From NCBI GenBank assembly GCA_020444065.1, contig JAHLLQ010000001.1, positions 558,001 to 622,000 on the forward strand: a DNA stretch of 64,000 bases. The letters run 5' to 3'. Every line of letters begins with the position of its first letter. Positions within the stretch are counted from its first letter, which is position 1. Of the stretch, positions 8,123-14,942 are shown in pieces. The notes beneath the pieces were generated by a model, which was not told the DNA's origin, did no database searches, and saw only the letters and a program-made list of their open reading frames with translations. This stretch comes from a bacterium. GTDB lineage: Bacteria; Sumerlaeota; Sumerlaeia; SLMS01; JAHLLQ01. The translations under genes were made by a program, and so were the position numbers.

Positions 8123-8247
8123 TGTGACTCGCCCAGAATCCCGTCATCAACGCCTGTCCCTGTGAGTTGAGTTGACGACAGGCGGTTCCAGACGGATGAT
8201 TGAGATGTGTCGAATCGCTATTCCGGAGTCGTAAAGGGGAAATTGAG

Positions 8248-9051
8248 ATGATTCAGGGATCACAACCCTCCGGCGAGGGCCCTCGCGTGTCGCGGGATCC
8301 GGCCACGGGAGCCGGTCGGTCGAAGACCGCTGTTCCCAGAGATCCGGCAACAGGTGCCGGGCGCTCGAAGACGAGCGTGCCGCGCGATCCAGCCACGGGA
8401 TTTGGCCGATCGGCTACAACTGTCCCCAAAAAGGGACAACCCGACCCGCCGTCGAAGACCGAGACGGTGGCACAGGTTGCGAAATCAACGGCAGTCGGGC
8501 TGAAGTCTATCCTGATGTGGGTGGTCCCCATCGCCGCGGCGGTCATTGCCCTGTACTTCATCTTCCTCGGCGACAAGGCGCCGGCTGAGGTCCGCACGCC
8601 CGATGCGACGATCATGACCTACACGGAAACGGTACAAATGTACGTACCGCCGGCCGGCCGTATGCCGTCGCAGGATGGCGTCAGTACATGGCTCAATTTC
8701 TTCGATGGTCCTTCACGGCTGTGGTTCAACGAGAACGTCGACAAACTCGCGTTCATAATGAACCAGGACAAGCCTGAGGAATTCATGGATTGGCCGGATA
8801 CGAAGAAGCGCTCGGAAGCGATGAAGTTCCTGCTCACACAACCACCGCTTGGCGGCGTTGTGAAAGTCATCTCTGTCTACAACGATGAAGACAACGGAAC
8901 CGCCCAGGTCGAGGTCAGAGCGGGCCTTGGGCAGGCCTCCTTCAGCATGGTGGAGAAGGACGATCGCTGGCAGTTCCAGGATATGATGGGCAAGAAAATC
9001 CAGATCGGCCAGATCATCGCGCCGCTGAATCCTCCCAAGAGGAATCGGTAG
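8248..9051 (+). CDS. Single-pass membrane protein with three 15-aa N-terminal repeats
   Basis: I do not recognise this protein (267 aa). The ATG at 8248 is set by AAGGGGA 7 nt upstream; an upstream start at 8200 lacks one. Residues 16-60 are three tandem copies of a 15-residue unit (RDPATGAGRSKTAVP, RDPATGAGRSKTSVP, RDPATGFGRSATTVP). A basic linker leads to one membrane helix (SILMWVVPIAAAVIALYFIFLG, about residues 90-111), then an outer domain of about 150 residues (DGPSRLWFNENVDKLAFIM ... VEVRAGLGQASFSMVEKDDRWQFQDM), perhaps NTF2-like judging by the closing beta strands. The repeats are rich in basic residues and Ser/Thr and would face the cytoplasm. Confidence 0.78.
   Translation: MIQGSQPSGEGPRVSRDPATGAGRSKTAVPRDPATGAGRSKTSVPRDPATGFGRSATTVPKKGQPDPPSKTETVAQVAKSTAVGLKSILMWVVPIAAAVIALYFIFLGDKAPAEVRTPDATIMTYTETVQMYVPPAGRMPSQDGVSTWLNFFDGPSRLWFNENVDKLAFIMNQDKPEEFMDWPDTKKRSEAMKFLLTQPPLGGVVKVISVYNDEDNGTAQVEVRAGLGQASFSMVEKDDRWQFQDMMGKKIQIGQIIAPLNPPKRNR
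8293..8427 (+). repeat. Three tandem 45-bp coding repeats
   Basis: Three in-frame 45-bp units (8293-8337, 8338-8382, 8383-8427) encode R-D-P-A-T-G-[AF]-G-R-S-[KA]-T-[AST]-V-P. Codons differ between copies at synonymous sites, so the protein repeat is being kept by selection and is not a fresh DNA duplication. Confidence 0.9.
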
Positions 9052-9162
9052 GGCCAATTTTGAGTGAGCCGCGGCGGGGGCTCGTTCTGAGGATATTCCA
9101 CTTGGTCCGCGGCACGATCAGGCTCTAACATTGCCTTGAAATCATCGGGAGAAAAAGCCCTC

Positions 9163-10773
9163 ATGCAACGTGCACTGGTGGGAGTCGTGATCGGCAGCCG
9201 GGCCGACTTCAACGTGATGCGCCGGGGCCTTGAGACCCTGCGCGTCATGGGCGTTCCATACGTTTTCGAGGTGATTGCTCCGCACCGCGGGCCGGAGAGG
9301 CTGGCGGACTTCGCGCGCGGCGCCGGCGAGAAGGGCATCGAAGTCCTGATCGCGGCCGGTGGCGGATCTTCGCTGATCGCAAATCACATCGCATCCTACA
9401 CGAACCTCCCAGTCATCGGTGTGCCGATCGATGCCTCGCCGCTGCGCGGACAGGACGCGCTGTATTCCATGGTGCAGACACCTCCGGGCGTTCCTGTTGC
9501 GACCGTGGGCATCAATAACTCGGAGAATGCGGCGATCCTTGCCGCCCAGATTCTTGCGCTGAAGTACCCCCAATTCCGGATGGTTCTCGCCCACCGCCGA
9601 ATGGCGAGCGTCCAACGACTCGATGCGATCCAGAAGGAGCTGCGCAGCGAGTATCCGGACCTCTGTTTGCCGGATCGCACGGCGCCGGTGAAGAACGCTG
9701 CGCTCAGCGGTAGCGACAGCGATACCGATTCCGAAGGCGATGGAAGTGCGAGCAGCGAGGCCGTGACGCCAGAACCTCCCGAGGATTCGGTTCGCATTCG
9801 GCCGGGTGCTGTTTTCGTGGAACGCCCCACGGGCGTGGGGGCTCAAGACCTGGTTTCAACACCAATCCCGCAGGAACCGGGGACGGGCCGTCGTGAGGCG
9901 CGCCCGGTGAGCATTCAACAATTGCTCGGGGATAAGCGCCCCCCCGCCGTCGCATCCTCGGTACATGACCTGGACACAAAGGAAGACAGCGACTCTTCGG
10001 ATGCCGAAACAGAAACTCCGACGCCGCTGCTTCCGCCCGCGGAGCACGTCCCGATTCCAGTCGCTTCCGACGAAGCGCCGCCCGAACCAGAACCCGTCGA
10101 GGAGGCGCCGGAAGAACGGCACGTTGAGACAAAGATTTTCAAGATCAACCGGAACGAACCAGACGTCGACATTCTCGAGCATGCCATGATGGTTCTGCTC
10201 GAGGGCGGTGTCCTCGCGCTGCCAACGGACACGGTCTACGGGCTGGCTGCGGATGCAACGAACAAGGACGCGTTGGAGCTTTTGTTTGCCCTCAAGGGCC
10301 AGGAGCGCCAGCGAACCTTGGGCGTGCTGATCCATCATCCGGATATGCTGGAGCGGCTCGTCCGAGAGATTCCGCCGGCCCTCGAGCCAGTCCTTGAGGC
10401 TTGCTGGCCGGGTGCATTGACGGTGATCCTGCCAAAGGCCCCTGGCGTGCTAACGGGCGTCTCTGCCTCCGACCGCGTCGGCATTCGCGTGCCCAACGAT
10501 CGCGTGTGCCTTGAAGTCATTTCCCGCGTAGGCCGGCCGGTCGCGATGCGGAATGCAACCGTGGCGAACTCCGAACCGATGACCAGTGCAGAACCTGTCG
10601 TGGAGAACTTCAACGGGCTCGTAGATTGCGTACTGGATGGCGGCGAGTGCGCGGCTTCGGCCGGTGCCTCGACCGTGCTCAGCGTCATGGGGGATCGTTT
10701 CGAGATCTTGCGCGAAGGTGGCATCAGCCGCGCGACGCTGAGGGATCTCCTCGGGGATAAACTCAAAGACTAA
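9163..10773 (+). CDS. PurE-TsaC fusion: N5-CAIR mutase-like plus threonylcarbamoyl-AMP synthase-like
   Basis: One frame of 536 aa holds two enzymes. Residues about 1-165 are PurE-like (N5-carboxyaminoimidazole ribonucleotide mutase, purine synthesis): GVVIGSRADFNVMRRGLETL, the APHRGPERL loop where typical class I PurE has SAHRTP, AAGGGSSLIANHIAS and PPGVPVATVGINNSENAAILAAQIL. A linker of about 160 residues is Ser/Asp/Pro/Glu-rich and looks disordered. From about residue 330 comes a YrdC/Sua5/TsaC domain (threonylcarbamoyl-AMP for tRNA t6A37): GGVLALPTDTVYGLAADAT, ALKGQERQRTLGVLI, CWPGALTVILP, VGIRVPNDRVCLEVI and ASTVLSVMGDRFEILREGGIS. I chose ATG 9163, with GGAG 11 nt before it, over a TTG at 9136. 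lipB starts 11 bases after the stop. Confidence 0.88.
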   Translation: MQRALVGVVIGSRADFNVMRRGLETLRVMGVPYVFEVIAPHRGPERLADFARGAGEKGIEVLIAAGGGSSLIANHIASYTNLPVIGVPIDASPLRGQDALYSMVQTPPGVPVATVGINNSENAAILAAQILALKYPQFRMVLAHRRMASVQRLDAIQKELRSEYPDLCLPDRTAPVKNAALSGSDSDTDSEGDGSASSEAVTPEPPEDSVRIRPGAVFVERPTGVGAQDLVSTPIPQEPGTGRREARPVSIQQLLGDKRPPAVASSVHDLDTKEDSDSSDAETETPTPLLPPAEHVPIPVASDEAPPEPEPVEEAPEERHVETKIFKINRNEPDVDILEHAMMVLLEGGVLALPTDTVYGLAADATNKDALELLFALKGQERQRTLGVLIHHPDMLERLVREIPPALEPVLEACWPGALTVILPKAPGVLTGVSASDRVGIRVPNDRVCLEVISRVGRPVAMRNATVANSEPMTSAEPVVENFNGLVDCVLDGGECAASAGASTVLSVMGDRFEILREGGISRATLRDLLGDKLKD

Positions 10774-10784
10774 TCGGAAGAAAA

Positions 10785-11444
10785 ATGCAGGCAACTTTTG
10801 TCGATCTGGGCAGGATGGAATACCAACGCGCCTGGGACTTGCAGCGCACACTTCAGGAAGAACAAATCGCAGGCAATCGCGAGCCGATGCTTCTGTTTGT
10901 GGAGCACCCGCCGACGATCACAATTGGTCGTCGCGGCGAGTCGGCGGATGTCGTCGCGCCAACGGCGGTTCTCCAGGCGCGAGGTATCGCCGTGACGGAA
11001 ACCGACCGCGGCGGACAAGTGACCTACCATGGTCCGGGGCAGCTCGTCGCCTATCCTCTCGTCAACTTGCAGGACATCAAGCTGGGTCTCCACGAATACA
11101 TGCGCGCTCTCGAAGAGGCCGTGATTCAGTATCTCGCGACGCTTGATATCAAGGCTGGCCGCGTGAAGGACCGCACGGGCGTTTGGGTGGGTAAGGAAAA
11201 GATCTGCGCCATGGGCATCCGCGTTCGGCGGTGGTGGACACTGCATGGCCTGGCTCTGAACGTCAGGACGGATCTCAACCACTTCGGCATGATCGTCCCC
11301 TGCGGCATCCGCGATCGCGGGGTGACCTCGCTCGGCAAACTCCTCGGTGATGATGCTCCTACGCTCGAGGACGTCAAACCCGCGATGAAGGCGTGCCTGG
11401 CGAAGGAGTTAGGGCTGGAGTTGATAGACGGATCCTTGGAGTAA
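10785..11444 (+). CDS. lipB: Octanoyltransferase LipB
   Basis: Lipoyl(octanoyl) transferase, moving octanoyl from acyl carrier protein to lipoate-dependent enzymes. The 219-aa length is normal. Visible signatures are the substrate-pocket motif RGGQVTYHGPGQLVAYPLV, the lysine motif GVWVGKEKICAMGIRVRRW and the catalytic cysteine motif NHFGMIVPCGI. The ATG at 10785 follows GGAAG closely, 11 bases after the PurE-TsaC stop, so the two are likely co-transcribed. A lipA was not seen in this window. Confidence 0.95.
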   Translation: MQATFVDLGRMEYQRAWDLQRTLQEEQIAGNREPMLLFVEHPPTITIGRRGESADVVAPTAVLQARGIAVTETDRGGQVTYHGPGQLVAYPLVNLQDIKLGLHEYMRALEEAVIQYLATLDIKAGRVKDRTGVWVGKEKICAMGIRVRRWWTLHGLALNVRTDLNHFGMIVPCGIRDRGVTSLGKLLGDDAPTLEDVKPAMKACLAKELGLELIDGSLE

Positions 11445-11525: not shown

Positions 11526-14500
11526 TCATTCTTCCGGCGGCGGTTCCTGCGGGGCAACCATGTGGCTGCGGCTCTCGTGACGTCCGGCAGCGCCGCAGCA
11601 GTCTTTGAACTTCTTGCCGCTTCCGCACGGACAGGGATCGTTGCGGCGTACCTTCGGCGTGTTCCGACGATAGGTCGAAAGGCCCGTCTGCGGGCGTCGG
11701 GGACGTGCCGGAGCCTGCTGCTGCTCTGCGGGTGCAGCCTGAGGCGCAGCAGAACCGGCTTCGGCCTTCTGATAGCTCATCTGCTTCACGCGCCGACGCT
11801 CCTGCTCTTCCGGTGTCACCACCTGGAAGCGGAAGAAGCGATCGAAGATCTCGCGGTGCACGGCCAGCAGCATGTCGCTGAACATATCCGTGGCGTCCTT
11901 CGTAAACTCGATCAGCGGATCGCGCTGGCCGTAGCCACGCAGGCCGACGCCTTCGCGAAGGCTATCGATGGCCAGTAAGTGATCCTGCCACTCCGCATCG
12001 ATCGTTCGCAGGGAGATATAGCGCGACAGAGAGTTCGTCATCTCGGCGCCGAGCATTTCGCCCTTCTGCTCGTATGCTTCAACGACGAACTCCATCACGG
12101 CTTCCAGAAGTTGCTCGAACGTCGTGTACTTCCGATCGCGCAATTCGCCGACGTCCATCATGAAGAGCACGCGGCTGATGTAATCGAAGAAGCCTTCTGT
12201 GTCCCACGTGGACATGTTCGCAGGCTGACCGTAGTCGGCTGAGAACACACCTTCGATCGCATCGGCAAAAACGTCCAGCATGACCTCGCGCAGTTCGGGC
12301 TCAACGAGCAGTTCGCGGCGCAACTTGTAGATCGTCTCGCGCTGCTTGTTCATGACGTCGTCGTACTCGAGCGTCTTCTTGCGACGTTCCTGGTTGATGC
12401 CTTCGACCTTCTTCTGCGCGCGTCCGATTGCCTTCGTGACCATCGGGTGGAAGATGGGTTCGCCTTCGCCCATGCCCAGTCGCCCCATCCAGGTGGAGAG
12501 TTTCTCGCTGCCGAACCAACGCATCAGGTCGTCCTCGAGACTGACGAAGAAGCGGCTGGTGCCCGGATCGCCCTGTCGGCCGGCACGACCACGCAACTGG
12601 CGGTCGATACGACGGGATTCGTGACGCTCCGTGCCGATGATCTGAAGGCCGCCGGGCCATTCGTCATCGTCGGTATCGCGCGAATCGCGAACGCCTTCGC
12701 CGAGCTTAATGTCCGTACCACGACCGGCCATGTTCGTAGCGATCGTGATCGAACCGGGCTTGCCGGCGTTTGCGACGATCTCGGCTTCTCGCTGGTGGTT
12801 CTTCGCGTTCAAAACGGCATGGCTCAGTCGTTTTGCTCTCAACATGCGCGACACGGTTTCGGAGACGGCGACAGAGGTCGTGCCGACAAGAATCGGCAGA
12901 TTCAGCCCATGAAGGCGTTCGATCTCGTCAATCACCGCCTTATACTTCTCGCGCTTTGTCTTGTAGATGATGTCGTCGAGATCCTGGCGCGCCGTCGGCA
13001 CGTTGGATGGGATGACAACAACGTCCATGCTGTATGTGTGTGCGAACTCGCTCGCTTCCGTCTCGGCCGTACCAGTCATACCGGACAGCTTCTCGTACAG
13101 GCGGAAGTAGTTCTGGATCGTGATCGTTGCGAGAGTCTGCGTTTCCTTCTCGATCGTCACGCCTTCCTTCGCTTCAACGGCGGCGTGCAGGCCGTCGCTC
13201 CAACGACGACCGGGCATCTTGCGGCCGGTGTACTCGTCGACGATGACGATCTTGCCTTCTTCGATCACGTAGTCCACGTCGCGATTCTTCAACGCGAAGG
13301 CATGCAACAACTGGCTGATCGAGTGCAGTTCCTCGGACTTCTCGTCATGCTTTTTGCGAATCTCGAGCTTCTCCGCTTCGCGGTCTTCCTTGGTCAGCGA
13401 TTCATTCTGCTCGACCTTTGCAAACTCGTCGAGCAAGTCCGGAAGAACGAAGTAGTCCGGATCCTGCGGAGAGAGCGTCATGCGCCCCTTTTCGGTCAGC
13501 TCGAGCTGGCGGTTCTTCTCCTCCACCATGAAGTAGAGTTCCTTCTCAAGCTCGCGCATCTTCTTCTCGAGCATGAGCTGGTTCTCAATCTTGTCTTGCA
13601 GCTTGTTATTGTGCGGATCTTCGCGTAGCTTCATGTAGCGGTTATGCTTCGGCATGCCCTTGCCGCAGAGAAGCAGCTTGTAGCCGCCTTCCCAACTGTC
13701 GGGATCTTCCTCGAGCAAGTCCTGGGCTTCCTTCGCCAGGCGACCGACCAGCATCTGCTGCTTGTTGACCAACTCGCGAACCATTGGCAGAAGCTTGTCG
13801 TACTGGTGGGTTGAACGATCGACCGGGCCGGCGATGATGAGCGGCGTACGCGCTTCGTCGATCAGGACCGAGTCGACCTCGTCGATGATGCAGTAGTGGT
13901 GTGGACGCTGCACGAGTTGGGCTTTGTCCAATGCCATGTTGTCGCGCAGATAGTCGAAACCGAATTCGTTGTTCGTTCCGTAAGTAATGTCGCAGCGATA
14001 GGCGTGGCGGCGTTCCGGCGTGTGCGGTTCGGACTTGTCGATACAGCCGACGGACATGCCGAGGAAATTGAAGATCGGCGTCATCCACTCGCTATCGCGC
14101 TTGGACAGGTAGTCGTTCACCGTGACCAGGTGAGCGCCACGGGCTGTGAGGGCGTTGATGTAGAGCGGAAGAATGGCGACGAGCGTCTTGCCTTCACCGG
14201 TTGCCATTTCGGAGATGTTGCCCTCATGCAGCGAGATGCCGCCGGCGAGCTGAACATCGAAGGGAACCATGTTCCACTCGATCTCCGCTCCACCGGCCAT
14301 CCACTTCTTGCCGATGTGGCGGCGACAGGCTTCCTTCACCGCGGCAAAGGCCTCGGGTAGAATCTCGTCCAGACTCAGCGTCTCATCGTCCTTCTTCTCA
14401 TCCAACTGATTGCGGACATCGCCCCACGAGAGATCCTCCCAGGGTTCGAAATCGAGTTCCTCGATCGAGCGCATCATCAGGTGGAAATCGCGATCTTTTC

Positions 14501-14942
14501 CTTCTGCGTTCTTCGGGAATTCGTCCAGGAAGATCACGCTCTTCGGCTTGTGCTCGGCGCTCATGCGTCCCATGCCTTCGCGAATCTGCGAAGCCAGGTC
14601 GCCGGTCTTCTCAACGCCTTCGTTCACAATCACAAAGGCGATCAGGTCGCCAGAGTGGAAGTCGCGGCGTGTGCCCAGGAACGTGGCGGCCGCGATGTCC
14701 GGGTGGCGCTCCAGGAATCCTTCCGCCGCTTCGTGATTGATCACGGCGTCACCAACGCGAGAAACGCGTGGGACGGCCTTCAAGAGACGGCGGAACTCCG
14801 CAGTCTTCAGGCTGAGATCTTCGTCTGAGATCTGCTCGTACTCGGCAAAGACCTCGTTGATCTCGACCGTCATCGGCATCAGCCGTTTCATGTCTCGGGC
14901 CTGCTTGTCTCCAAGCAGGACTTTCATCAGGGACTTAATCAT
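11526..14942 (-). CDS. secA: Preprotein translocase ATPase SecA with inserted ANL-C-like domain
   Basis: The motor of Sec-dependent export, 1138 aa (E. coli 901). Motifs in order: Walker A MATGEGKT (about 246-253), VTVNDYLSKRDSEWM, Walker B IDEVDSVLIDEARTP, MTGTAETEA, VGTTSVAVSETV, NMAGRGTDI, ERHESRRIDRQLRGRAGRQGDPG and a C-terminal zinc motif DPCPCGSGKKFKDCCG. A coiled-coil insertion in the preprotein cross-linking region (NKLQDKIENQLMLEKKMREL onward) is of the kind known from Bacteroidetes SecA. Unusual is residues about 58-160, between EFRRLL and LDEILPEAFAAVKEA, which normal SecA lacks: it reads like the C-terminal lid of acyl-CoA synthetases (EAAEGFLERHPDIAAATFLG, GDLIAFVIVNEG, VIFLDEFPKNAEGKDRDF). 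The start is the ATG at 14942. Confidence 0.96.
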   Translation of the reverse strand: MIKSLMKVLLGDKQARDMKRLMPMTVEINEVFAEYEQISDEDLSLKTAEFRRLLKAVPRVSRVGDAVINHEAAEGFLERHPDIAAATFLGTRRDFHSGDLIAFVIVNEGVEKTGDLASQIREGMGRMSAEHKPKSVIFLDEFPKNAEGKDRDFHLMMRSIEELDFEPWEDLSWGDVRNQLDEKKDDETLSLDEILPEAFAAVKEACRRHIGKKWMAGGAEIEWNMVPFDVQLAGGISLHEGNISEMATGEGKTLVAILPLYINALTARGAHLVTVNDYLSKRDSEWMTPIFNFLGMSVGCIDKSEPHTPERRHAYRCDITYGTNNEFGFDYLRDNMALDKAQLVQRPHHYCIIDEVDSVLIDEARTPLIIAGPVDRSTHQYDKLLPMVRELVNKQQMLVGRLAKEAQDLLEEDPDSWEGGYKLLLCGKGMPKHNRYMKLREDPHNNKLQDKIENQLMLEKKMRELEKELYFMVEEKNRQLELTEKGRMTLSPQDPDYFVLPDLLDEFAKVEQNESLTKEDREAEKLEIRKKHDEKSEELHSISQLLHAFALKNRDVDYVIEEGKIVIVDEYTGRKMPGRRWSDGLHAAVEAKEGVTIEKETQTLATITIQNYFRLYEKLSGMTGTAETEASEFAHTYSMDVVVIPSNVPTARQDLDDIIYKTKREKYKAVIDEIERLHGLNLPILVGTTSVAVSETVSRMLRAKRLSHAVLNAKNHQREAEIVANAGKPGSITIATNMAGRGTDIKLGEGVRDSRDTDDDEWPGGLQIIGTERHESRRIDRQLRGRAGRQGDPGTSRFFVSLEDDLMRWFGSEKLSTWMGRLGMGEGEPIFHPMVTKAIGRAQKKVEGINQERRKKTLEYDDVMNKQRETIYKLRRELLVEPELREVMLDVFADAIEGVFSADYGQPANMSTWDTEGFFDYISRVLFMMDVGELRDRKYTTFEQLLEAVMEFVVEAYEQKGEMLGAEMTNSLSRYISLRTIDAEWQDHLLAIDSLREGVGLRGYGQRDPLIEFTKDATDMFSDMLLAVHREIFDRFFRFQVVTPEEQERRRVKQMSYQKAEAGSAAPQAAPAEQQQAPARPRRPQTGLSTYRRNTPKVRRNDPCPCGSGKKFKDCCGAAGRHESRSHMVAPQEPPPEE

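Follow-up and report, generated by a model that had tools for sequence, protein, structure and literature searches.

A class-wide PurE–TsaC fusion and its putative retention as a pseudoenzyme or regulator

The fusion locus

The window (the whole stretch of 64,000 nucleotides analysed here) carries a gene in which PurE, an enzyme of purine synthesis, is joined in one frame to TsaC, an enzyme of tRNA t6A modification. The frame is open from a TTG at 9136, or from an ATG at 9163, up to the stop at 10773, and comprises the following features:

9163–10773, plus strand: purE–tsaC fusion open reading frame (536 amino acids plus stop), conserved in relatives
9178–9603, plus strand: PurE (AIRC) domain, class I-like (PF00731); closest solved structure T. 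maritima PurE (1o4v, E 1.3e-39)
9277–9288, plus strand: APHR in place of SAHR; Ala-Pro stands for Ser-Ala, with the catalytic His and Arg unchanged
9355–9378, plus strand: AGGGSSLI in place of the GAGGAAHL pocket loop; loop His gone
9664–10134, plus strand: acidic linker rich in Pro, Ser and Thr, poorly conserved apart from short motifs
9796–9810, plus strand: IRPGA-type linker motif; I[RQ]PGA in 9 of 10 members of the order, IGARA in the remaining one (G006)
9850–9879, plus strand: linker motif LVSTPIPQEP; L[VI]xTPxP[QH]EP in 10 of 10 members of the order
10192–10719, plus strand: TsaC/YrdC domain (PF01300); closest solved structures are archaeal Sua5
10294–10302, plus strand: KGQ in place of the ATP-site KxR motif; Arg lost
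10552–10560, plus strand: NAT in place of the ATP-site SxN motif; neither conserved residue retained

Pfam places an AIRC match (PF00731) at residues 6–147 of the protein (E 1.2e-46) and a Sua5_yciO_yrdC match (PF01300) at residues 344–519 (E 1.1e-40), and the fusion exceeds the cut-offs of two NCBIfam equivalog models (TIGR01162 purE, 154.0 against 149.6; TIGR00057, 154.9 against 123.2). These matches confirm the initial annotation, made from the letters alone, which had described a single frame with a PurE-like domain, a linker of about 160 residues and a YrdC/Sua5 domain; the motifs that it quoted, APHRGPERL and AAGGGSS, are present as quoted. The linker has a net charge of -21, with Asp and Glu abundant alongside Pro, Ser and Thr, and the core pattern TPxP[QH]EP has a single match in the window's genome, which is the fusion linker. 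AlphaFold2 was run on three sequences (the window's, L135 and L136) with a mean pLDDT of 38, and the model was not used. Plasmid records held no place matching at least 80% of the fusion length.

Distribution and origin of the fusion

The same two-domain open frame is present in nine other members of the window's order (G001–G008 and G010), seven of which match end to end at 51–61% identity, with G005 and G006 matching half by half. A frameshift, a chance join or an assembly join is ruled out by this shared frame. The initial annotation had proposed to look for conservation in relatives and to count an interruption of the linker by a stop or a frameshift against a true fusion; the fusion proves to be conserved across both the order and the class, and no such interruption was seen.

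More distant fusions were found across the class. The 30 TsaC halves in the fusion lineage, including those of two genomes whose PurE half has since been lost (G013 and G016), all fall in one clade (99*). The separate Sua5 genes of the class group in a second clade, apart from the fused halves, which means that the separate Sua5 did not come from copying the fused domain; recent duplication of the fusion as the source of the separate genes is ruled out on the same ground. Among the strongest matches listed from a search of 193 genomes, none outside the class covered both halves.

Separate but neighbouring purE and tsaC genes occur in the sister class (G039), and matches to the two lie no more than 150 bases apart in five of 21 genomes from outside the phylum (G044, G045, G050, G058 and G059). 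YrdC also adjoins PurE at four of 18 further loci (G183, G167, G126 and G170) that were not picked for adjacency, and several of these neighbouring pairs have frames that overlap. In one relative (G014) the fusion begins 62 bases after purH. Given this adjacency in other bacteria as well as the sister class, together with the purH–fusion order, the fusion most likely arose by the merging of a purE–tsaC operon pair. Descent from a bifunctional PurE–TsaC enzyme that such a merger would have made before the class radiated is well supported.

Adjacent purE and tsaC, often with overlapping frames, were observed in many phyla (L146, L149, L158, L169, L170, L171 and others), and no explanation for the adjacency was found in the literature searched. 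A literature search for a PurE–YrdC fusion, a purE–tsaC operon or a PurE pseudoenzyme returned nothing relevant, though it was a weak search in which 'PurE' also matches 'pure'. A separate arrangement is seen in fusions of family f6 (L106, L120 and L122), where a Clp_N domain separates a degenerate PurE half from the YrdC domain.

Separate genes and the fate of each half

The second, canonical purE and tsaC for which the initial annotation had suggested a search are both present in the window's genome: a class I-like PurE with all motifs at C3:311368 (L001) and a full-length Sua5, complete with its C-terminal domain, at C1:166925. The genome also encodes TsaD and a LarB, the latter assigned from a low AIRC score and its sequence length and not from a curated LarB match. 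No PurK over the cut-off was found in this genome or in those where the fusion is the sole copy; the window genome's separate purE groups with other PurK-less copies, and in sister genera purE adjoins purK.

Across the class the state of each fused half is correlated with the presence of its separate counterpart. Neither a separate PurE nor a separate non-HypF TsaC was found in seven genomes (G014, G017, G018, G023, G028, G032 and G034), and the fused halves of these keep SAHR, KxR and SxN, although the His of the GGAAHL loop is absent in four (G018, G023, G032 and G034). The two halves of the G018 fusion lie on different contigs, with one in-frame TAG in the TsaC half. With their near-intact active sites, these sole-copy fusions are presumptive bifunctional enzymes. 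Where a separate PurE but no Sua5 was found (G012, G015, G019, G020, G026, G029 and G037) the PurE half is altered or degenerate and the TsaC half intact, and where both separate genes are present (the window's order, G024, G033 and G036) SxN has been lost from the TsaC half.

The KxR/SxN tetrad is broken in 12 of 12 fusions accompanied by a separate Sua5 and kept in 17 of 17 that are not (Fisher p 2e-8). A complete SAHR is found in one of 20 fusions with a separate PurE against seven of eight without (p 5e-5). Because the relatives share history, both associations come down to few independent events, about three losses for TsaC and only one or two pairs on well-supported branches; an independent-pairs test is without power. 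Some of the absences of separate genes behind these counts come from incomplete metagenome-assembled genomes. The one fusion to retain a complete SAHR alongside a separate PurE is that of G010, which has lost SxN with no Sua5 found (80% complete) and does not enter the Sua5 test. In G021 (82% complete) the PurE half is degenerate and no separate PurE was found. The correlation is consistent with the release of a fused half from catalysis once a separate purE or sua5 is present.

Active sites of the fused domains

The TsaC half belongs to the same fold family as the TsaC/Sua5 threonylcarbamoyl-AMP synthases (TIGR00057, PF01300; P. abyssi Sua5, 6f87), and the fused copies of relatives carry TSAN as TsaC does. 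The window's copy differs from those enzymes in its KGQ and NAT segments, in having no Sua5_C domain and in sitting behind PurE. Three of the four residues of the ATP-site tetrad are missing, and the Ser-to-Asn change at the SxN position is fixed in all ten members of the order, all of which keep the threonine-binding triad Thr/Ser/Arg. In yeast Sua5 both KxR/SxN and the threonine triad are required, and mutating the KxR/SxN residues abolishes TC-AMP synthesis (PMC10321239). With this ATP-binding tetrad broken, the fused TsaC half of the window's order has very probably lost the ability to form threonylcarbamoyl-AMP, and the published mutants argue strongly for a loss of TsaC activity.

The PurE half aligns over its whole length with class I PurE (N5-CAIR mutase; TIGR01162, PF00731; T. 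maritima 1o4v), keeping both catalytic residues, His and Arg, and GSxxD for the most part. It differs from that enzyme in having AP for SA, in its altered pocket loop, in the attached TsaC and in the lack of a detected PurK in the genome; the initial annotation was right to call this pocket unusual. Identity as a class II PurE is ruled out, since Arg and not Lys follows the His and the class I model scores over its cut-off. The His is essential for PurE function (PMC9376930), and within the order it is kept in five fused copies and lost in five, with the remaining domain still in place. Pocket columns of the fused PurE are less conserved within the order than its core (identity 0.53 against 0.66), which inverts the constraint seen in separate PurEs (1.00 against 0.71). 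Taken together, these features argue with moderate force that the PurE half of the window's order is at best impaired, and the catalytic His, Arg and GSxxD residues that are retained leave room for residual activity in the window's protein.

It might be expected from the family cut-offs, the retained His-Arg pair and threonine triad, and the seven genomes whose only PurE and TsaC is the fusion, that the window's protein is a working bifunctional enzyme whose kinetics or substrate may have changed, and that the separate genes are isozymes. This is unlikely given the broken KxR and SxN, the latter in every member of the order, at residues needed in the yeast enzyme, and the loss of the PurE His from half of the order while the rest of the domain is kept. 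The regulated bifunctional link between purine or ATP status and t6A that the initial annotation had imagined likewise does not fit the window's organism, which has a separate full-motif PurE and full-length Sua5 and a TsaC half short of most of its tetrad, but it may fit the sole-copy relatives. The outcome that the same annotation had held up against itself, a pseudo-enzyme, is largely what was found, cleanly for the TsaC half and in part for the PurE half.

A neofunctionalised enzyme, with one or both pockets turned to a different substrate, is somewhat more doubtful. Lineage-specific invariant residues, including the Asn at the SxN serine and a Cys in the DCxL segment, and a long stem branch with constraint after it would suit such a history. 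However, a PurE pocket more variable than its core is the opposite of what conserved new chemistry would produce, and the columns of the TsaC tetrad vary within the order (0.54) though the Asn is fixed.

Selection and present role

Both halves of the fusion are still under purifying selection. Estimates of dN/dS are 0.03–0.24 for the PurE half, 0.05–0.16 for the TsaC half and 0.30–0.38 for the linker where finite, comparable in the two halves to the separate PurE and Sua5 (0.08–0.15), and all are approximate because dS within the order is 0.8–1.6, near saturation. The invariant Asn and linker motif and the low dN/dS, set beside the residue losses, tell against a working TsaC and against a mere relic alike. 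That the gene is decaying towards loss is very improbable: catalytic residues have gone, G013 and G016 have lost the whole PurE half, and G035 and G011 yielded no fusion, but the frame is intact in ten members of the order at up to order-level divergence, dN/dS is far below 1 in both halves and the linker motif does not vary.

There is reason to think, from this pattern of sequence change, that the fusion of the window is a retained pseudoenzyme or regulator and not the cell's working PurE or TsaC, a putative role that we regard as probable. From the merged ancestral enzyme, lineages that possess separate purE and sua5 genes may have seen the matching half of the fusion freed from catalysis. 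In the window's order each function now has a separate copy, the fused TsaC half is very probably inactive and the PurE half impaired at best, and the protein has been kept nonetheless, with newly invariant residues and a new linker motif. Its most likely present role would be non-catalytic, as a pseudoenzyme scaffold or regulator, for which oligomerisation of the PurE type, the threonine-binding triad that it still has and the linker motif may be the means. Support for such a scaffold or sensor role is weak. It is conceivable, if unlikely, that the fusion of this order acts as a regulatory sensor, binding threonine and perhaps also a ribonucleotide of the purine pathway without catalysis, and couples purine synthesis to t6A or to translation by mixed assembly with the separate PurE or by docking through TPxPQEP.

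In this bacterial group the PurE–TsaC fusion is a class-wide innovation. HypF and TobZ also carry a YrdC-type domain within a larger polypeptide, but with a Kae1-like partner and carbamoyl-phosphate chemistry, whereas the partner here is PurE. PAICS and other PurE-containing purine fusions likewise place a PurE-type domain in a bifunctional protein, but PAICS joins two consecutive purine steps, whereas the present fusion pairs PurE with a tRNA-modification enzyme. The class offers a natural series of fused enzymes from two unrelated pathways in which the fate of each half can be read: some lineages appear dependent on the fusion for both reactions, some for TsaC only, and some for neither and yet keep the protein. 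Such a series makes it testable how an enzyme that has gained a replacement becomes a conserved pseudoenzyme, and why so many bacteria place purE and tsaC side by side.

Neighbouring genes

Directly upstream of the fusion (8200–9051, plus strand) lies a gene whose hypothetical product has a single apparent membrane segment and repeats of RDPATGxGRS; it has no Pfam match, and in G001 and G003 homologues likewise lie upstream of the fusion. Downstream, lipB (10785–11444, plus strand) starts 11 bases past the fusion and is the same neighbour in G001, G002 and G004. A coupling of the fusion to lipB was considered and dropped, as lipB adjoins it in only these three other family members and at none of the other loci checked. 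On the minus strand (11529–14942) the window encodes a SecA with an AMP-binding_C domain (PF13193) inserted near its N-terminus (residues 74–149, E 7.5e-6, over the cut-off), and the same insertion occurs in the SecA of a related genome (L095:2246-5833), where it scores just under the cut-off.
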